Origin: Pseudoalteromonas distincta
GTDB lineage: Bacteria; Pseudomonadota; Gammaproteobacteria; Enterobacterales; Alteromonadaceae
DNA length: 64,000 bases
Reading direction: 5' to 3'
Assembly (NCBI RefSeq): GCF_000814675.1
Contig: NZ_JWIG01000008.1
Location: 1 to 64,000 of the forward strand
Shown: positions 11,169-21,141 of the stretch, in pieces
How positions within the stretch are numbered: position 1 is the stretch's first letter
How the letters are laid out: every line of letters starts with the position of its first letter
Notes under the pieces: generated by a model
What the model was told of the DNA's origin: nothing
What the model saw: only the letters and a program-made list of their open reading frames with translations
Database searches by the model: none
Program-made: the position numbers and the translations under genes

Positions 11169-11738
11169 ATGAAAAACAAACAAAACGGGTTCACCCTTTT
11201 AGAACTCATGGTAACCGTTGCTATCGTTGGCATTATTGCATCAATTGCGATTTGGAATAGTAGCGATATGCTAGAAGAAAATAGAGCTGAGAACTTTTTG
11301 TTGGAATTAAAAAGAAATATTAGCTATGCACGCTCTCAAGCAGCAAGTACAGATGAAATAGTCATTGTGTGTCCTGTTCCCAGTGCAAAAAATCTTGGCA
11401 CTTCCAATCTCACATGTAAAAGTGGGTGGGGCTCAACTAATACTGTGATCTTATTTATAGATGCTAATAATAATGATAACTATGATAGTGCAAATGATAG
11501 CCTACTGCGCGTAATGTCGGATGTGTCTTCTAATGACAAAATAAAATTCACGGGTGATAGCTATCTTCGTTTTGATACTAGCGGACGAATTACAACAAAT
11601 CTTATCGACCCAGAAGTTGATGAGTTGACCGGTTTTATTTATTGTCCTAATAGTGATAACAAAAGCAATAAAGCACTTAGCGTATCTGTCTCTGGTACAG
11701 CTTTTTATCTTGGTGATACTGACGAAACGTGCGACTAA
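11169..11738 (+). CDS. FimT/GspH-family pseudopilin (first of two)
   Basis: A 189-residue prepilin: MKNKQNGFTLLELMVTVAIVGIIASIAI has a short basic leader, the G/F cleavage point of prepilin peptidase, and Glu at +5 of the mature protein, followed by the hydrophobic helix. The rest fits the GspH/FimT domain (RAENFLLELKRNISYARSQAASTDEIV..., GRITT, and Cys pairs in FIYCPNSDN and the C-terminal TCD). It is a minor pilin thought to prime type IV pilus assembly; some FimT proteins bind DNA during uptake. It points toward the pilV-pilE operon instead of being its first gene. About 80 bp separate it from a second FimT-like gene. Confidence 0.85.
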   Translation: MKNKQNGFTLLELMVTVAIVGIIASIAIWNSSDMLEENRAENFLLELKRNISYARSQAASTDEIVIVCPVPSAKNLGTSNLTCKSGWGSTNTVILFIDANNNDNYDSANDSLLRVMSDVSSNDKIKFTGDSYLRFDTSGRITTNLIDPEVDELTGFIYCPNSDNKSNKALSVSVSGTAFYLGDTDETCD

Positions 11739-11817
11739 AAAACATACAAACTTATCTTGCCATATTTGTATCATTTACTAGACTGAGTTAATCATTTATT
11801 AACTCAGGTCTTCAAGG

Positions 11818-12348
11818 ATGAGATTATCAATATCAAAAAACAAGGGAGTGACACTTCTCGAATTAATGGTATCAATTACTGTTGTCAGTGTAATCAGTCA
11901 ATTATCGATGTGGTTTTATCCAGACTTATTGGCTAAAAACCGATTAGATAACCATGTGAATCTGCTACACCGAAATATAAATTATGGCCGCCTTTATGCA
12001 ATTGAAAATGCTACTTACGTCACGCTTTGTGCACTAAAAGACAGTCAATGTACAAAAGACGAGTGGAATGGCCAAATGTCACTCTTTATCGACAAAGATA
12101 AATCAACCTCGTTAGATGATGATGAACTACTCTTAAGCACTTTCGAGGATGTTCATGATGCCGATACTTTAGAGTACCCCCGTAGCGCTATTACGTTTCG
12201 TCCTGACGGGTCATTAAATGGCTTCCAAAATGGGACTTTTATATATTGCCCTAATAGCGATAAAGCCAATCTCAAAGGATTGGCTTTATCTGTAAGTCAA
12301 ACGGGTAGAATTCGTATTAAATCAACTGATAAATGCCAGAAAAAGTAA
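11818..12348 (+). CDS. FimT/GspH-family pseudopilin (second of two)
   Basis: A 176-residue prepilin whose N-terminus, SKNKGVTLLELMVSITVVSV, keeps the G/V cleavage point and Glu at +5. It shares with the preceding gene the order 'RN(I)(S/N)Y(A/G)R', a Cys near residue 73 and the phrase FIYCPNSD near the end, so the two look like old tandem duplicates that have diverged strongly. Its stop is 6 bp from the convergent pilE stop. FimU-like function in the pilus-tip complex is inferred. Confidence 0.82.
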   Translation: MRLSISKNKGVTLLELMVSITVVSVISQLSMWFYPDLLAKNRLDNHVNLLHRNINYGRLYAIENATYVTLCALKDSQCTKDEWNGQMSLFIDKDKSTSLDDDELLLSTFEDVHDADTLEYPRSAITFRPDGSLNGFQNGTFIYCPNSDKANLKGLALSVSQTGRIRIKSTDKCQKK

Positions 12349-12354
12349 CTCTAG

Positions 12355-12780
12355 TTATCTTCCCCAACAGTAGTCAACATCCTTTCCTTCGTTTGTTTTT
12401 GCCCCTTGCGCGCCTTTAGTACCTATATCAGTTATAGATAGCTCGGTGCAATCACCATCTCCTTTTACCGGCCCTGCCACGGGTTTAGCAGTGATTGTAA
12501 AAGCATTTTTATCGGTCACTTTAATCGTTAATTCAAAATGTTTATTCTCGGTTTTGTCTTGCAACCCTAAATCTGTAAATTTCTCTGTATATTCCCTATT
12601 ATCAACAAAATACTGCTCTTCCTTGTTTGCTGCATCTAATAATGCTGCAACTGCCTCTGCACGTGAGGCACGTTTTACATATTCTGTATAATTAGGCAGC
12701 GCAATTGCTGCAAGTATGCCGACGATAGCAACGGCTATCATCAGCTCAATTAAGGTAAAACCACGTTGTTTTTTTATCAT
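12355..12780 (-). CDS. pilE: Type IV minor pilin PilE-like
   Basis: A 141-residue prepilin: [43 protein letters not shown] is the textbook type IV pilin start, with cleavage after Gly7 and Glu5 in the mature protein. A Cys pair (GDGDC... and DYCWGR) would close the C-terminal D-loop. In P. aeruginosa the PilE of this operon is a minor pilin at the tip, and its position directly after pilY1 (10 bp) supports that reading. It is the last gene of pilV-W-X-Y1-E. The symbol follows Pseudomonas usage, not the Neisseria major pilin. Confidence 0.88.
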
Positions 12781-12790
12781 TTAAGCCTCC

Positions 12791-15700
12791 TTAATCGTCT
12801 TCATTCTGTATATTTTCATCATTCTCTTCACGCTTATATATATAAGTTTGCTGAGTTTTAAAACCAAACCCTAATGCTTTGTCATTAACAAGTTGTATTT
12901 TATCATCTACAACTTTTAATCCTGGGCCTGTAATTTCAAGTGGTTGGAGCGGGTTTTCAGCATTTTCACCTTTGATACCCGGCCCAATTAGATAAAACTG
13001 ACTTTTTACTTCCTCATCAGGATCATCATCGCACTTTCCGTTATCATCACTATCTGCACATGAAGAACCAAAATAAAGTTGTGGCGTATCTGGCACCTCT
13101 GTACTTGTAGCAAATTTCAGATCGTCATAAACTTTAGTACCGTAGTGCAAATGAAATGCGTAAAGAGAGCCCCCTCCTCCACTTAATGAACATTGATTTT
13201 TAATTGATGAATCCAACGTCGGAGTAAAAGATGTAAAATAAGCAACGCCACCAACAACGGTTGCCGCAGCTAACGACTTTTCACCAGTAGCGAGTTTATA
13301 ACGCCACCCAACAAAATCATTCGCAAGTTCATCTTCTAATTTTACAAACTCAGTTACACTATTTAAAGCGCTGCCAAATTCATCATCATTCATCTCCATT
13401 AACATACTATGCGTTATAGCTTTAGGCGCAGATTCGAATAATTTAGTAACTGTATTTTCATCTCTAATCATAAATAATTCATCAGCAGTGCCTTCTCCAT
13501 TAGGATTTGAACGATTACCACTACCAATCACAATTGCATCATAAGGTGTATCTAATCGAGTGACTACACCATCTTTAATAGTTACTTTACTAAACATAGT
13601 TCTCGCCACCACGGGCTTGTAAAAAAAGCGTCTATCGGCATGAATACCAAGATCTGCTAACTGAAAATGACTAAATTTTCCTTCATCTGATATATCTATA
13701 CGCCAGATACCTCCACCAGTATCTGCCGCATATATCCGGTCTGTATAGCCATCATAATTAGAATCCAATAACGTTACATCAGCAGCAATACTATATTTTC
13801 CTTTAAATTCGGCATCCTTAGATGCATCTCCCTTAGGTGCTAAAATCCAAACTTTTTCACCTGTTTTTGCATTAACGATATAAATGCCGCGGCCAACTTC
13901 GTCCTCAGTTTTTACATTAGCGTTATCGGCGTCATTCGAATCTTTATTGGTATCATAACCAGCCCCAAATATTAAAAGGGGAGTATTTCCTTTTGATTTT
14001 ATATAAGCAACTTGGGGCTTAGACCACGTTTGGCCAAGGTTTTTAAATTTCCCTTCACCGCCTTTAATAGTCCACATTAAACTTGGAGAGTCTGGCTTTG
14101 TAATATCCAAACCATAATAATTACGACCACCTCTGCGCATACCTACAGCAGCCCAGACTTGGTCACCTTTAGTTGCGTTAATAGTTCCATCATTTAAACC
14201 TTCACCATTAAGGCTCTTATTGTTGAAATAAACACTAATAGGTCCATCTATGCCGTATTCTTTAGTACTATGTTCATCACGAAGAGGTTCAATAATTTTG
14301 TATAGTTCAGATGGAATAAACGCCCAACTTTCACTAACTTTATTGTTAGTGTCATCATCTTTAAACATATGTAAAAAGCCAGCATTAGTACCAATTAGAA
14401 TACGAATGTCACCGTTACCATAGTCTATCGCAACTGGTTTTGAGTGCAGTGGGTCACCAAATATATCATCGCGTAAAGCGTCAGATTCGCTATTTTGTTT
14501 ATTATCATACCCGCGAGCCCAGTTAATAATATTTTTTAAGTCAGATTTATCAACATCAAAAGCAACCGCTGCTTTTTGCTTATTGCCATAGGCATTTTTA
14601 ATCTTATTAAAATTAAAGTCTAATAATGTATTAGTATTTGCATTTGTAAGTATTTTACGAGCTTTGTCACTACTTATTAATGCAGCATTGACTCCACCCT
14701 CTTTTACAGAGCTACCATCGGAAGTTCCATCAGGACTCCAAAATGTATGCGCACTCGTCTTTATAAGGCCATCACTATCAAACGCTTCTATATCTTTGGA
14801 ATCAATAACTTTGTTACCTGATAATTTCAGTTTTTTTAGATTACCACGCCATCTAGTATGCTTTTCAGGATAAAACATACCTAAGTATATGGCGTCTCGA
14901 CTACGCGTTTGATCTACATTATTACTTGCAACAGAAGGGGATGTAAAAGTACTATTTTCCTGTCTAATCGCTGCTACAGCATTATTTAGCGACTGAGACA
15001 ATTCATCTGGTGTACTTGCTGGTAAGTTTTCTCCCCCGCCTAATTCAGCAGCTCGCTTTAACAGATATTGACCTTCGGTGCTCATTCCTGAACCAAATCC
15101 AATCGTATATAAACGACCCGTTTCATTTATCTCGGGAGTAGATGGGTACAGATCGACAACAGTGTCGTCTGTTCCATGAATAATTTTAGCCAATTGGTGT
15201 AAGTAGTTATCATAGCGAAAGTCATCTTTATCAAGTTCTCTACCAATATAGTCTTGTATAGTTAGCTCTCGGCCAAAAAGCTTATTATGCTCTGTGCTGA
15301 TAGAACCATCACTATCATTGTCACTGGAAGAGCTTAGATAATAACCATTGTATTTAGGTGATGGATCACCATCAGTCATATAGATAATATTTACTGAATT
15401 ATCACAACGCTTAGCTTCAGCTGCGCTATCAGCAAAAGGTGATATATAAGAATAGCTAGAAACAACATCTTCTAAAACAGATGTGCATTCCTTTTTAGTC
15501 CCCCAGACCCATCTTCCGTACCATCTACTCCAATATTTATAAGGAACATCTTCGCATCTTTGAACTTGTTCTTGAGTAATAATTGCAGATTCTATACCTG
15601 TGTCTCTTTTATCTCGATCTACCAGAAGAGCATAGTCCAACTCTTTTCCTGTAATATATAAATATGCTTCCCATAAAGTTTCAGCGAGAGGCGTTCCACC

Positions 15701-16099
15701 GCTAGCTGGAAGTGATGCTATAGATGCGTCAATATCAGAGGCAGGGCTACCAATTCCATTTAATACATAGCCACCATCGGTCCCGTTAAAGCGCATTAAT
15801 CCGAAATCGATTGAATCCTTATTATCATCGACTACTTTACTCATAGCCTCTTGAGCAGCTTCAAGCCTGCTATCAGAACAAAGGATATATGGCCCATTAT
15901 AATACTTTTGCCCACAGTCATCCCCTGTACTTGAAGAAAAGGCCATACTCCCGGAGGTATCAAAAATTAATAATACTCGCGGTTTTTCATCTGAGTTAGC
16001 ATCTTTATTTACATAAAGCTCGATATCCTCAGCGTATGCCTGCATATTAATTGCTGATGTAAATAATAAAACGAGTGCTATATAAAGTTTAAATTTCAT
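12791..16099 (-). CDS. pilY1: Type IV pilus tip adhesin PilY1
   Basis: An 1102-residue secreted protein with a signal peptide (ending about AYAED). The N-terminal von Willebrand A-like domain has the metal site DTSGS near residue 48 and MTDGDPSP further on. The C-terminal half is the PilY1 beta-propeller (AAVGMRRGGRNYYGLDI, PQVAYIKS) with a calcium loop, DSNYDGYTDRIYAADTGGGI. A second acid loop, DSDDNGKCDDDPDEE, lies near the C-terminus. PilY1 sits at the pilus tip, antagonises retraction and mediates adhesion and surface sensing in Pseudomonas. It lies between pilX (1-bp gap) and pilE. Confidence 0.93.
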   Translation of the reverse strand: MKFKLYIALVLLFTSAINMQAYAEDIELYVNKDANSDEKPRVLLIFDTSGSMAFSSSTGDDCGQKYYNGPYILCSDSRLEAAQEAMSKVVDDNKDSIDFGLMRFNGTDGGYVLNGIGSPASDIDASIASLPASGGTPLAETLWEAYLYITGKELDYALLVDRDKRDTGIESAIITQEQVQRCEDVPYKYWSRWYGRWVWGTKKECTSVLEDVVSSYSYISPFADSAAEAKRCDNSVNIIYMTDGDPSPKYNGYYLSSSSDNDSDGSISTEHNKLFGRELTIQDYIGRELDKDDFRYDNYLHQLAKIIHGTDDTVVDLYPSTPEINETGRLYTIGFGSGMSTEGQYLLKRAAELGGGENLPASTPDELSQSLNNAVAAIRQENSTFTSPSVASNNVDQTRSRDAIYLGMFYPEKHTRWRGNLKKLKLSGNKVIDSKDIEAFDSDGLIKTSAHTFWSPDGTSDGSSVKEGGVNAALISSDKARKILTNANTNTLLDFNFNKIKNAYGNKQKAAVAFDVDKSDLKNIINWARGYDNKQNSESDALRDDIFGDPLHSKPVAIDYGNGDIRILIGTNAGFLHMFKDDDTNNKVSESWAFIPSELYKIIEPLRDEHSTKEYGIDGPISVYFNNKSLNGEGLNDGTINATKGDQVWAAVGMRRGGRNYYGLDITKPDSPSLMWTIKGGEGKFKNLGQTWSKPQVAYIKSKGNTPLLIFGAGYDTNKDSNDADNANVKTEDEVGRGIYIVNAKTGEKVWILAPKGDASKDAEFKGKYSIAADVTLLDSNYDGYTDRIYAADTGGGIWRIDISDEGKFSHFQLADLGIHADRRFFYKPVVARTMFSKVTIKDGVVTRLDTPYDAIVIGSGNRSNPNGEGTADELFMIRDENTVTKLFESAPKAITHSMLMEMNDDEFGSALNSVTEFVKLEDELANDFVGWRYKLATGEKSLAAATVVGGVAYFTSFTPTLDSSIKNQCSLSGGGGSLYAFHLHYGTKVYDDLKFATSTEVPDTPQLYFGSSCADSDDNGKCDDDPDEEVKSQFYLIGPGIKGENAENPLQPLEITGPGLKVVDDKIQLVNDKALGFGFKTQQTYIYKREENDENIQNEDD

Positions 16100-16100
16100 C

Positions 16101-16631
16101 TTAAATCCCCTTACCCGTACTGGCCATCTCTTGAGCTATACCAGTTACTATAGTTAACTGGTGCTTGCTTTTAGAGCCATATTCTATAGTAGTAGATACT
16201 TGAACCATGTTGCATGAAACACCCGCTGTAAAACTATAACTACGAGGGCAATTAAGCTCTAGCGAACCGCGATTTAAATTCGTCATTATGCTCTTCATTT
16301 CGTGTCCAGGCTCTGTAATGTCTTTCTCTGGTATCATTATTTTATTACCATCACTATCAAGCTTACCCGAATCTGTAGCGATCTCATCTGGAGTAAGAAA
16401 AAAGTCACTATCAGCACCTTCTTTAGCTTCTGACGCAATCACTCTTTGCACTTCGCCAATCAATTGATTTTCTGCAACTTCTCGCTCTTGTGCTGCATTA
16501 GTAATTTTAATATCAATTGTACTACTACTCATAAGAGTAACTGCAATGCCGGTAACAGCTATCACCATAATTAATGCTGTTAAAAGCACCACACCTTGTT
16601 GCTTACTTGGTAACAACTTTAAATTTTCCAT
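16101..16631 (-). CDS. pilX: Type IV pilus assembly protein PilX
   Basis: A 176-residue protein with the PilX N-terminus (SKQQGVVLLTALIMVIAVTG), a prepilin-like helix in which Glu5 is replaced, as is usual for PilX. The segment AAQEREVAENQLIGEVQRVI is a characteristic amphipathic continuation. It is a minor pilin that joins PilV, PilW and PilE in the tip complex with PilY1. It overlaps pilW by 13 bp. Confidence 0.88.
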   Translation of the reverse strand: MENLKLLPSKQQGVVLLTALIMVIAVTGIAVTLMSSSTIDIKITNAAQEREVAENQLIGEVQRVIASEAKEGADSDFFLTPDEIATDSGKLDSDGNKIMIPEKDITEPGHEMKSIMTNLNRGSLELNCPRSYSFTAGVSCNMVQVSTTIEYGSKSKHQLTIVTGIAQEMASTGKGI

Positions 16632-17653
16632 AGATTACCTCCAACATTACTTAAACGAATAGTTGTTGTAAAAACAGTGCGTCTATAATTATCATTAAAA
16701 GTTAGATCTCGTTTACCTGCACCTTCACCTAAGGTATATTTTTGATTTTTTATTTTTAAGCCCGGATCTGGTTGCAATGCTCTAACTAGTAAAAACACTT
16801 GTACAGTTAAAATACCTTTACGGTTTTCCCATTCAGAAGAGGCTATTTTTTCAATGCTTTTATAAGTGTCAACCTTGCTATCACTGTTAGTATCAAGACC
16901 AAAAATAAAACGCATGTTTTCAACACCTTCCATTATCGTTTCATTGGTCATTTTTCCTTTTACTAATCGTTTTCGTTTTAATACAGGTACTTTTATTTTT
17001 TTATTATTAACTTCATACTCTTGCTCTGAAATATAATAAACGTGATGAGTATATGGCCATATAGTTACATTATCGTTTGTCGGAGTATATTCACCAGTTA
17101 CAAATTTCGCTTGCTCTTGCTCAGCAATAAAGAAATAGACTGCGCTATTATCTTTACCCGTTGTTTTGTTTTCATAAGTAATTGTGCCATCATCATTATA
17201 GGTAGGCACATATTGTAAGTTACCTTGTAGAAACTTGAGTTGAAGAATATCACTCCCTTGAGTTGCATCACCTATACAGTTTAATTCACTTGTACTTTCA
17301 GCTGTTTCTGCATATATAGTACGAAAATTACTACTACTGGTTAAATCTGGAAAACTTCCGTTATTAGTTCCATCAGCACCAACGCAATCTTTAGTGGGTG
17401 CTAAAGAGCTAACTGTTGTATTTACAGCTGTGAACGAGTCATCGTAATAAGTTCCCCAAAAACCTACTTGCTCAATATCACGTTGCATAATATTTATAGC
17501 TAAGCGTCCTGACTCTTGGAGTTCACCTATTGCCATTGTGTCTTTTGTGGTTAATTTCATACTAATAAAAGTAAACATAACGCCACCTAAAATCAAACCA
17601 CCAATAAATAGTGAAATCATAACTTCTACAAGAGTAAACCCTTTTTGCTTCAT
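16619..17653 (-). CDS. pilW: Type IV pilus assembly protein PilW
   Basis: A 344-residue prepilin: MKQKGFTLVEVMISLFIGGLILGGV, with the G/F cleavage site and Glu5, then the PilW body including GRLAINIMQRDIEQVGFWG. It lies 1 bp downstream of pilV and overlaps pilX, so translation is coupled. Its role is a minor pilin in the tip-priming complex. Confidence 0.9.
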   Translation of the reverse strand: MKQKGFTLVEVMISLFIGGLILGGVMFTFISMKLTTKDTMAIGELQESGRLAINIMQRDIEQVGFWGTYYDDSFTAVNTTVSSLAPTKDCVGADGTNNGSFPDLTSSSNFRTIYAETAESTSELNCIGDATQGSDILQLKFLQGNLQYVPTYNDDGTITYENKTTGKDNSAVYFFIAEQEQAKFVTGEYTPTNDNVTIWPYTHHVYYISEQEYEVNNKKIKVPVLKRKRLVKGKMTNETIMEGVENMRFIFGLDTNSDSKVDTYKSIEKIASSEWENRKGILTVQVFLLVRALQPDPGLKIKNQKYTLGEGAGKRDLTFNDNYRRTVFTTTIRLSNVGGNLWKI

Positions 17654-17654
17654 G

Positions 17655-18254
17655 TTAGCTCCTCACATATATGTAGCTGGTTAAAACCACTAAGCGACGT
17701 TTGTTATTAGCCTTATCGCCACAAGCTACTTTTCCAGTATCTGTATTTGCTTTAAACTCTTGTCGCCCTTGCCACGATATAACGACTTCAATATTAAACC
17801 CTTTACCGCCCGTATTAGCGGCTGAGGTTTGGCTAATACACACGGTGGCATCATCTAAGGAGCCGGTACTATATTTATCCTCAGTACTACGTGCGCTGAT
17901 AGCACGCTTCCATTGTGCCACGTCCAGAGATACTATCTGCTCAGTGTCGCACTCACTATCACTAGCAAAGCAAGCTGATGATTCGGTCTCCTTGCTATCA
18001 CTTTTTATTGCTTTATCGCCGTTATAAGAACCATAAAGTTTAATAGAGGTAATGGTATCGTTAGCTCGTATGCGCTGCACAATATCAGTACCAAGCGCAA
18101 CGGCGGCTGCACGCTGCATAGAGTCAAAGCTCGCCTGCTTTGCTTTTGCTTGCAAAGCAACTGCGCCTAAAAGACCAAAACTAAGAATAATAAATGCAAT
18201 TAACACTTCAATCAGAGTGAAGCCTCTTTGCACTTTTGTTTGAGATGACTGCAT
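17655..18254 (-). CDS. pilV: Type IV pilus modification/minor pilin PilV
   Basis: A 199-residue prepilin starting [27 protein letters not shown], the PilV signature with Glu5 and the conserved 'GLLG' turn. The body (AAAVALGTDIVQRIRAND) also matches the family. It is the first gene of the pilV-W-X-Y1-E operon. Its start lies 185 bp downstream of the LytTR regulator stop; that gap carries repeated GTT motifs. Confidence 0.9.
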   Translation of the reverse strand: MQSSQTKVQRGFTLIEVLIAFIILSFGLLGAVALQAKAKQASFDSMQRAAAVALGTDIVQRIRANDTITSIKLYGSYNGDKAIKSDSKETESSACFASDSECDTEQIVSLDVAQWKRAISARSTEDKYSTGSLDDATVCISQTSAANTGGKGFNIEVVISWQGRQEFKANTDTGKVACGDKANNKRRLVVLTSYIYVRS

Positions 18255-18337
18255 AATAGAACCAAATAAAAATTATCTGATTATAAGTTTATGCTATTTA
18301 TTTGAGGAATCAATGAGGACTAAGACAAGCGGTTATA

Positions 18338-18389
18338 TTTGTTGATAAACGGTTAATTAAACCTGTTTATTCAATAACACCGTTGATAA
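18338..18389 (+). promoter_or_regulatory. Candidate LytTR-regulator binding repeats before pilV
   Basis: Three motifs resemble the LytTR half-site pattern [TA][AC][CA]GTTN[AG][TG]: TTTGTTGAT (18338-18346), ACGGTTAAT (18349-18357, one mismatch) and ACCGTTGAT (18379-18387, perfect). GTTGATAA occurs twice, at 18341 and 18382. The spacings are not the standard 21-bp step, so this is a candidate only. Confidence 0.35.
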
Positions 18390-18439
18390 TTAAGACTCAA
18401 ATGTATTTAAATCAGGGGGAGGTTAATTGCAAGGTAAGC

Positions 18440-19141
18440 CTAAAGCGAATTTTTTACTAATTTAAGCTCACGGCGGCTCACTGGCAATAACTCACTGCAC
18501 CCTTGTAGCTCAATCATATGATTGCCATTCGCTTTTGAATGCAAAGCAATTACTTTTTGTTTATTAACCAGTGTATTGCGATGAATTCGCAAAATATGTG
18601 TAGGAAATTGTAACTCTAATTGTTTTAGACTTTGTTCAAGTAAAGCTTCTCCACCACAGAATATCATTTTGGTATACTTTTCTTCGGCACTAAAATACAA
18701 AACATCATTTATATCAACACTGCGTAGAGTACCAGCTAGCTGATAAGAGATTTTTACATTTTGTTGTTTTTGAATATGTACTTTATTTAAGCGCCCGACT
18801 TGCTTAAGCACCTTTTGCAATGATTGCTCTGAAATAGGTTTAACTAAATAACCTGCAGCGCTTAATTGTAAAGCATCGAAGGCATGCTCAGGGTGAGCAG
18901 TTATAAAAACAATAGCAGGAGGTAGAGTTAAACTATTGAGCTCATTAGCAACTTGTAAACCATTCATACCAGGCATATCAACATCTAAAAAAATCAAATC
19001 AGGCGTTTGCTTTTTAGCAAGTACTAGAGCTTCCTTACCATTACTTGCCTCACCTTGTACAACTATGCTTTTATCGTGTGTTAACAAACGGATTAAGCGA
19101 GATCTCGCAAGAGGCTCATCATCAACAATGAGTACATTCAT
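18440..19141 (-). CDS. LytTR-family response regulator (AlgR/LytR type)
   Basis: A 233-residue regulator. The receiver domain (1-120) has the phosphoacceptor Asp in DLIFLDVDMPGMNG, the Asp pair VDDE at the start and the conserved Lys in GYLVKPIS. The C-terminal LytTR DNA-binding domain (about 130-233) contains YFSAEEKYTKM and RIHRNTLVNKQKV. It overlaps its kinase gene by 4 bp. AlgR with FimS/AlgZ controls the fimU-pilVWXY1E operon in P. aeruginosa; its place immediately upstream of pilV here suggests the same job, but orthology is not proven. Confidence 0.88.
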   Translation of the reverse strand: MNVLIVDDEPLARSRLIRLLTHDKSIVVQGEASNGKEALVLAKKQTPDLIFLDVDMPGMNGLQVANELNSLTLPPAIVFITAHPEHAFDALQLSAAGYLVKPISEQSLQKVLKQVGRLNKVHIQKQQNVKISYQLAGTLRSVDINDVLYFSAEEKYTKMIFCGGEALLEQSLKQLELQFPTHILRIHRNTLVNKQKVIALHSKANGNHMIELQGCSELLPVSRRELKLVKNSL

Positions 19142-20172
19142 ACACTGCCCTCAATTAGCTTAGGGATAACGACCTTGACCCTAAACACATCATTTTTATT
19201 AGTAATTGTTAGCTGCGCTTTATTTTTATAATAAATATTTAATCGTTGGCGAATATTTTCAAGCGCCATTCCGTTATTAGGCCTAGTTTGAGCATTAGAA
19301 ATTGTTATAGGGTTAGAAACAATCATGGTTATATAGCCGGTAGTGATATGTAGCTCTACTTTTATTTCTGCACCATGCTCACTTGTTTCAACGCCGTGGC
19401 ATACCGCATTTTCAATTAATGGCTGCAGGGTTAAGCAAGGAATGCTCAATGCGGGTAGTTCATTAGGTATTTGCCAATCAACTCTTAAGCGATTACCAAA
19501 ACGCCACGTTTCAAGTGCGATATATTGCTTACTCAACGTTATTTCATCTTCAAGAGATACATTCTTCCCCGAGTGCATTGCAGCCTGCGATAAGGCGGCT
19601 AATGCTAAAATAGCCTGCTCTGCCGCATCGGCATCATGATGAGTAAGCTCTGCAGCAGTGTTTAAACTATTATATAAAAAATGAGGACGTATTCTAGCTT
19701 GTAGGGCATCAAGCTCTGCACGAGAAAGTGCTTTAGTTTGCTGCTCTTTTTCAAAATGAATTAATAAAAACTGGACGAATAAAGCAGCCAGTAAAGCCAC
19801 TATAATACAATTGCGAAGTGTGAAATAAATTAGGTTATTTGTATCATCTATATCAAAAGCAAAATGAGAAAATAAAATACTAAAAATACAGGTAGATAAT
19901 AAAAAAAAGGCAAAAAATAGACTTAATTGAAAAGTTTGAGTACGTTTTTGTAAGAAAAATCTACAGAAGTATAAAGAAGAGGTACCGACTAAAACAATTA
20001 AATGCATAAACAAACTAATGATCCCAAGTCGTAGCCAAATATCTCCTTCTACATTAGGTGCAAAAGCTAAAACAATAGCAATAACTTGAGAAACAATAAG
20101 CGTGGCTAATACGCCTCGCTCATTAAAAAGAGCCGAAAAAAGCAAACCATCATTTTGAAGTGACTTGCTCAT
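19138..20172 (-). CDS. LytS/AlgZ-type membrane histidine kinase
   Basis: A 344-residue sensor. The N-terminal about 150 residues form four to five hydrophobic segments with no recognised ligand domain. After a short linker comes the His_kinase motif IRPHFLYNSLNTAAEL, whose His is the phosphorylation site, then the HATPase_c part with LQPLIENAVCHG and NGMALENIRQRL. This is the non-canonical kinase type that partners LytTR regulators. A good ribosome site (AAGGAG) precedes the ATG. It begins 39 bp after ispH with no terminator between, so it may be read from the ileS-ispH operon as well as from its own promoter. Confidence 0.88.
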   Translation of the reverse strand: MSKSLQNDGLLFSALFNERGVLATLIVSQVIAIVLAFAPNVEGDIWLRLGIISLFMHLIVLVGTSSLYFCRFFLQKRTQTFQLSLFFAFFLLSTCIFSILFSHFAFDIDDTNNLIYFTLRNCIIVALLAALFVQFLLIHFEKEQQTKALSRAELDALQARIRPHFLYNSLNTAAELTHHDADAAEQAILALAALSQAAMHSGKNVSLEDEITLSKQYIALETWRFGNRLRVDWQIPNELPALSIPCLTLQPLIENAVCHGVETSEHGAEIKVELHITTGYITMIVSNPITISNAQTRPNNGMALENIRQRLNIYYKNKAQLTITNKNDVFRVKVVIPKLIEGSV

Positions 20173-20211
20173 AACGACTCTCCTTTAATCTAAATGTTTA
20201 ATATATTTAAA

Positions 20212-21141
20212 TTAACGTAGCTCTACAGGAACAGCAAATACTATATTTTCTACTTCACCTGGGTTCTCAACAACCTGCGTACCACCAAGATCTTTTAATC
20301 GGCTTATTACTTGTTGTACAAGTACTTCTGGCGCAGATGCACCCGCAGTTACGCCAACTGATTTAGAGCCTGAAACCCACTGCTCTTGTACATCAGTTGC
20401 GTCATCAATTAAATAAGCAACTGTGCCCATTTTATCTGCAAGTTCACGTAAGCGATTAGAGTTAGAGCTATTTTTAGCGCCAACAACTAATAGCACATCA
20501 ACTTTATCAGCTAAGTCACGAACAGCGTCTTGACGATTTTGCGTTGCATAACAAATGTCATCTTTACGAGGTCCGTCAATTGATGGGAATTTATTGCGCA
20601 GTGCATCAATAACATCTGCTGTGTCATCAACTGAGAGTGTTGTTTGGCTGCAATAAAAAAGATTTTCAGCATTTTTTACATTAAGCGCAACAACATCATC
20701 AACGGTTTCAACAAGATAAATGCCACCGGCTGAGTTATCATATTGTCCCATTGTTCCCTCTACTTCAGGGTGGCCATGGTGTCCAATTAAAATACACTCA
20801 ATACCTTTACGACTCGCACGTGTAACTTCCATATGTACTTTAGTTACAAGCGGACATGTTGCATCAAATACTTTTAAATCACGACGTTTAGCCTCTGAGC
20901 GAACCGCTTGCGAAACACCATGTGCACTAAAAATAACAATGCTGTCGTCAGGTACTTGATCAAGCTCTTCAACAAATACCGCACCACGACTTTTTAATCC
21001 ATCAACCACATAACGGTTATGTACTACTTCGTGGCGCACATAAATTGGCTTTTCAAAAATATCTAGAGCGCGCTCAACAATACTAATAGCACGGTCAACA
21101 CCAGCGCAAAAGCCGCGTGGATTAGCTAGTAATATTTCCAT
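20212..21141 (-). CDS. ispH: 4-hydroxy-3-methylbut-2-enyl diphosphate reductase IspH
   Basis: A 309-residue iron-sulfur enzyme performing the last step of the MEP isoprenoid pathway, yielding IPP and DMAPP. The three cluster Cys are visible in [13 protein letters not shown] (Cys12), [10 protein letters not shown] and [11 protein letters not shown], and the active-site Glu in the TVDDV/STT region is in place. ATG overlaps the fkpB stop by one base. It follows the conserved ileS-lspA-fkpB order. Confidence 0.96.

Follow-up and report, generated by a model that had tools for sequence, protein, structure and literature searches.

Gene organization at the ispH-pilV join

What is a LytTR-type kinase/regulator pair doing between a housekeeping gene, ispH, and the minor-pilin gene pilV? 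The initial annotation of the window (the whole stretch of 64,000 nucleotides of Pseudoalteromonas distincta DNA analyzed here) raised the possibility of a local version of the AlgR-FimS circuit that controls minor pilins in Pseudomonas aeruginosa. We consider it highly probable that the pair is an AlgZR ortholog at the ispH-pilV join, accompanied by a predicted operator and promoter, and that it controls pilVWXY1E.

Read along the minus strand, the window has rpsT-side genes followed, in this order, by ispH, kinase, regulator, pilV, pilW, pilX-like, pilY1-like, and pilE-like (Table 1). ORF and domain matches agree on a LytTR pair between ispH and pilV on a single strand, and its description as "inserted" is right as far as gene order is concerned. 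The kinase and regulator ORFs overlap by 4 bp, the gap between ispH and the kinase is 39 bp, and the one between the regulator and pilV is 185 bp. A terminator scan of the window lists no terminator-like site in either gap, which bears out the statement that none separates ispH from the kinase; together with the short gaps, this is compatible with housekeeping transcription feeding the sensor. The comparison with P. aeruginosa gene order stood in part: the neighborhood is common to both, but the Pseudomonas-group genomes examined differ in which way the pil operon points beside ispH. The position of FimT-type genes also differs between lineages. In Pseudoalteromonas a pair of them lies on the far side of the operon and points toward it, and in Rheinheimera-like genera a FimT-type gene directly follows the regulator.

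Table 1. Features of the ispH-pilV region, with positions in the window and the basis of each assignment.
Feature	Position	Strand	Basis
ispH (lytB), last housekeeping gene ahead of the pair	20212..21141	-	ORF; NCBIfam PRK01045.1-2 above cut-off
AlgZ/FimS-type sensor kinase, 344 aa	19138..20172	-	PF06580, alignment, hhalign to AlgZ profile, AlphaFold model
AlgR-type LytTR response regulator, 233 aa	18440..19141	-	PF00072 and PF04397, alignment, trees
Upstream half-site of predicted AlgR-like operator, ACCGTTTATC	18344..18353	-	Motif scans
Downstream half-site of predicted operator, ACCGCTTGTC	18324..18333	-	Motif scans
Predicted -35 element TTGATT, 10 nt past operator	18308..18313	-	Fixed-spacing conservation
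Predicted -10 element TAAACT, spacer 16	18286..18291	-	Fixed-spacing conservation
pilV, first gene of predicted target operon	17655..18254	-	TIGR02523 above cut-off
pilW	16619..17653	-	PF16074
pilX-like minor pilin, named by position	16101..16631	-	No Pfam match; weak NCBIfam GspK match
pilY1-like tip protein, named by position	12791..16099	-	Weak NCBIfam PilC-type match
pilE-like pilin, ComP_DUS domain	12355..12780	-	PF16732
Two GspH/FimT-type pilin genes, facing the pil operon	11169..12348	+	PF12019

Identity of the kinase and regulator

Judged by tree and profile, the pair is the orthologous AlgZ(FimS)/AlgR system of the Pseudoalteromonas lineage. A careful tree of 56 rows places the regulator and AlgR on one side of a branch with support of 99/98, against 14 paralogues, among them BtsR and a paralogue from the window genome itself, and unites the pil-side regulators in a single clade (100/100). 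In a larger, quicker tree the pil clade has a support of 98 and the group of pil and AlgR sequences (102 rows) one of 82, L215 being the nearest paralogue. Profile-profile alignment (hhalign, 100% probability) matches the kinase to AlgZ across 353 columns and over its full length, including the membrane part. The pair does not group with an unrelated LytTR family.

The regulator consists of REC and LytTR domains, and its phosphoacceptor Asp53 is invariant in 17/17 alignment rows; His164 and Glu254-Asn255 of the kinase are likewise invariant in a 17-row alignment. In the AlphaFold model of the kinase (mean pLDDT 80), four long membrane-type helices precede a LytS-type kinase domain and there is no extracytoplasmic domain, a topology shared with P. 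aeruginosa FimS, for which four membrane domains and the absence of a periplasmic domain are reported (PMC5979040). Neither the kinase nor AlgZ has a canonical D box, so that kinase activity is not assured. Searching PDB sequences with both proteins returned one histidine kinase and otherwise only receiver domains of a general kind.

That the pair might instead be BtsS/BtsR, which responds to pyruvate, or a metabolite sensor of some other LytS/LytTR family is scarcely credible. BtsR is the regulator's best NCBIfam match, but at 139.8 bits this lies far below the cut-off of 246 bits, E. coli BtsR and the paralogues are kept outside the AlgR group by the 99/98 branch, and Pfam shows the His_kinase domain (PF06580) alone in the kinase. 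The BtsS/BtsR identity was therefore rejected in favor of AlgZ/AlgR.

A class-wide search with the regulator alignment gave a match at E ≤ 1e-45 in 213 of 369 genomes, nearly always exactly one per genome. Eighty named loci were fetched with this alignment, and 8 of them adjoin pil genes (Pseudoalteromonas 3, Rheinheimera 3, Alishewanella 1, and Nitrincola 1), with ispH upstream in 7. The AlgR neighborhood is otherwise that of hemC, which was seen in 64 of the remaining 72 named loci and was adjacent or near in 13 of 17 unnamed class-wide AlgR-type loci checked by Pfam; the tree label "hemC" covers every AlgR-type match away from pil genes, other rows carrying it by tree position only. A location beside hemC is usual for AlgZ/AlgR and not essential, and the pair studied here lies at ispH-pilV instead.

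Distribution of the pair

A kinase match (E ≤ 1e-40) is present in 103 of 108 genomes of the genus, which rules out a recent insertion special to the window genome. In one of the five others (G210) the match is lost to a contig-end fragment, and four (G130, G175, G182, and G185) are without the pair. Of 118 sampled genomes of the GTDB family, 12 yield a kinase match exceeding 200 bits; these 12 also yield the regulator, with scores of 298-356 bits, the best other regulator match being 176 bits; no AlgR-class match was found away from the ispH-pil join in these 118 genomes.

The order ispH-kinase-regulator is kept in 80/80 pair-bearing loci and in each of 11 longer stretches. In 79/80 the next gene is of pilV or fimT type, so the arrangement is not a matter of chance. 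The exception, L123, is counted among the 80 although no pilV follows its regulator; it belongs to genome G189, in which pilV is on another contig. In the other genera examined, pil genes come straight after ispH and there is no such pair.

Two further arrangements were observed. Three pair-less Pseudoalteromonas loci (L077, L078, and L079) have a duplicated pilVWXY1 set beside ispH. In Nitrincola sp. A-D6 (L230) the pil-side copy is the sole AlgR-class match in the genome, and a HipA-like gene takes the place of ispH upstream of the pair, with pilin genes present; its regulator falls inside the pil clade, which suggests that regulator and pilus genes were transferred together.

A predicted operator and promoter before pilV

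The gap between regulator and pilV holds two half-sites with a start-to-start distance of 20, resembling the AlgR core site published as CCGTTCGTC (PMC4064291). Scanned with a consensus derived partly from the window itself, these tandem half-sites score at least 17/20 in 73 of the 80 pair-bearing loci (67 at period 20 and 6 at 21) and in 0 of 39 pair-less joins, whose maximum is 16; shuffled sequences score about 13 on average and reach 17 just once, as their maximum. The pair-less joins (L075 and L077-L114) come from other genera, four members of the genus, and one g45 genome, and exclude L076, a truncated pair-bearing locus. Rescanning with the published AlgR core alone gave at least 12/18 in 65/80 pair-bearing loci against 0/39 pair-less joins. 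Among the loci that do not fit, the related pair-bearing loci L149, L150, L151, L153, and L154 reach only 15, the best tandem pair of L073 (18) is on the opposite strand, and L123 has no pilV after its regulator. A score of 17 in Marinobacter vinifirmus (L327) was left uncounted, as by eye it looks like part of a terminator hairpin.

Downstream of the operator, TTG begins exactly at +10 from its end in 58 of the 73 loci and TANNNT exactly at +32 in 59/73; jointly, with a spacer of 16-17, they occur in 60/73, although these loci, like those of the operator counts, share ancestry and are not independent events. Among 44 sequences less than 80% identical, TTG is found in 34 and TANNNT in 35, compared with 0.9 and 2.0 after shuffling. 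We predict from this a sigma70-like promoter at a fixed spacing from the operator and before pilV. Relative to a predicted start near 18279, the half-sites would lie around -70 and -50, a plausible position for an activator.

Two genomes of the genus offer natural comparisons. G182, a close relative of the window genome in the ispH tree, is without the pair, and a score of 14, equal to background, is all that its gap between ispH and pilV reaches. In G189 the pair stays at ispH and the pilVWXY1E cluster lies on another contig with the exact operator before pilV; that contig ends about 200 bp past the operator, so the separation of pair and pilV rests on the assembly. A predicted AlgR-type site that precedes the minor-pilin operon and accompanies the pair is well supported by sequence comparison, and so, through orthology, conserved position, and this co-occurrence, is the proposal of a local version of the P. 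aeruginosa circuit.

How many targets

In the window genome (4.5 Mb) the tandem pattern occurs once without mismatch, not at all with 1-2 mismatches, and 17 times with 3; a reversed-pattern control gives 13 occurrences at up to 3 mismatches. Across 107 genomes of the genus, up to one mismatch yields 64 places in 61 genomes, of which 50 are beside the kinase, 1 is before the displaced pilV of G189, and 13 are elsewhere, the reversed-pattern control giving 19. Since no second close operator match is found in the genome, the minor-pilin operon is probably the main or only target, and single-target control appears likely from scans that covered tandem sites.

This bears on the idea that the pair, though AlgZR by descent, is a general regulator of many targets and merely neighbors one of them. 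P. aeruginosa AlgR does have many targets, some of them reached through single sites of the kind that a tandem scan would miss (PMC4064291). Nevertheless, with a tandem site that is unique in the genome up to 2 mismatches, and with off-pil places in the genus fewer than those of the reversed pattern, we regard a general regulator as unlikely and a dedicated one as the better reading.

Some off-pil sites have LytTR genes of their own in the vicinity. The stretches L347, L348, L350, and L352 contain other LytTR genes with similar tandem sites nearby, and one kinase-regulator locus, with the tandem site upstream of it, is common to L347 and L350. Close paralogues may therefore read similar sites, and the motif alone does not identify the regulator bound to it. 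From these loci it could be argued that some other LytTR regulator binds the repeat before pilV, or that the repeat is not an operator, and that the neighboring pair acts elsewhere. Such an explanation is very unlikely given that the repeat is missing from all 39 pair-less joins, including that of the close relative G182, that a promoter stands at a fixed distance from it, and that it stayed with pilV in G189. We thus retain the repeat as the predicted operator of the neighboring pair.

Origin of the pair and possible exchange of its predicted target

In the ispH tree, a single-gene tree with a weak backbone, the pair-bearing rows of Pseudoalteromonas and those of the Rheinheimera-like genera lie in clades apart from each other, and each of these clades also includes pair-less members. 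Their union into one clade is rejected (AU test, p 6e-10) and at least four changes are needed, which does not bear out a single simple gain of the pair. As the regulator itself forms one clade, it is likely that the pair either moved between genera or is old and was lost repeatedly. In Marinobacter similis (L326), where AlgR is at hemC, the stretch from ispH to the first pilin gene contains a tandem site scoring 19, one example that hints at a target site older than the local pair.

The close relatives L036-L040 have kinases 97-100% and ispH more than 98% identical, and PilV ranges from 98% down to 62%. For L037-L040 in particular, the kinases are 97-99% identical and PilV is just 62-74% identical. 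The pattern suggests that recombination swaps the minor-pilin genes, while the regulator and operator immediately upstream are conserved. With near-identical kinases and divergent PilV, sensing would have to use conserved parts or other subunits; recognition of the variable part of PilV by the kinase fits poorly with this divergence.

Proposed circuit and comparison with known systems

In P. aeruginosa, phosphorylated AlgR is reported to activate fimU-pilVWXY1Y2E, PilVWXY1 restrain FimS, and the fimU-pilVWXY1Y2E promoter becomes more active via FimS-AlgR when PilV, W, X, or Y1 is lost (PMC4064291, PMC5979040, PMC8787478). Judging from gene spacing, the pair would be transcribed together with the ispH operon; by analogy with P. 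aeruginosa, the kinase would phosphorylate the regulator, which in this form would bind both half-sites and activate pilVWXY1E. PilVWXY1 in the inner membrane may in turn restrain the kinase, a step modeled on P. aeruginosa alone, and the resulting feedback loop would keep the minor-pilin supply level. More tentatively, and with somewhat less than even confidence, the whole may be a stripped-down AlgZR, a closed inventory circuit for a single target in which the ispH operon supplies the pair steadily, there is one operator, and the products restrain the kinase.

The arrangement of algZ/algR beside pilus genes is already known from genome papers: homologues were described in a conserved pili cluster of P. 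tunicata, P. haloplanktis, and strain TW7 (PMC2536512, 2008) and in the same cluster of P. flavipulchra JG1 (PMC3853003, 2013). Both papers speculate that algZ/algR serve the pili alone, and their passages on the cluster make no mention of an operator or promoter and give no phylogeny or distribution test. A literature search on AlgR and LytTR regulators in this setting listed no operator or binding site for a pil-side pair. What the present analysis adds is the prediction of an operator with its promoter, the test of presence against absence, the trees, and the case for a single target.

If the pair controls the minor-pilin operon only, pilin sensing could be studied apart from the virulence and alginate network. 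Ready-made comparisons are provided by genomes in which pair and site have been lost together and by the one in which pair and target have come apart. In P. aeruginosa, both the signal of FimS and the role of AlgZ as kinase or phosphatase are still debated, and AlgR controls many genes.

E. coli BtsS/BtsR has the LytS/LytTR architecture in common with the pair of the window. The likeness to AlgZ(FimS)/AlgR of P. aeruginosa goes further, to an orthologous pair, what is predicted to be the same target operon, and a CCGTTCGTC-like site before it. The two systems differ in that the pair of the window is encoded beside its target and that of P. aeruginosa by hemC, and in that the predicted operator is a tandem with a period of 20, whereas the sites published for fimU in P. 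aeruginosa are CCGTTTGGC and CCCTCGGGC. A role in alginate production is not expected for the pair of the window, unlike in P. aeruginosa, and no Vfr input is known for it, again unlike in P. aeruginosa. The pair has apparently one target in place of the large regulon of AlgR. Lying next to that operon together with its likely operator, it looks like a compact AlgZR switch dedicated to the pilus genes of this marine bacterium.
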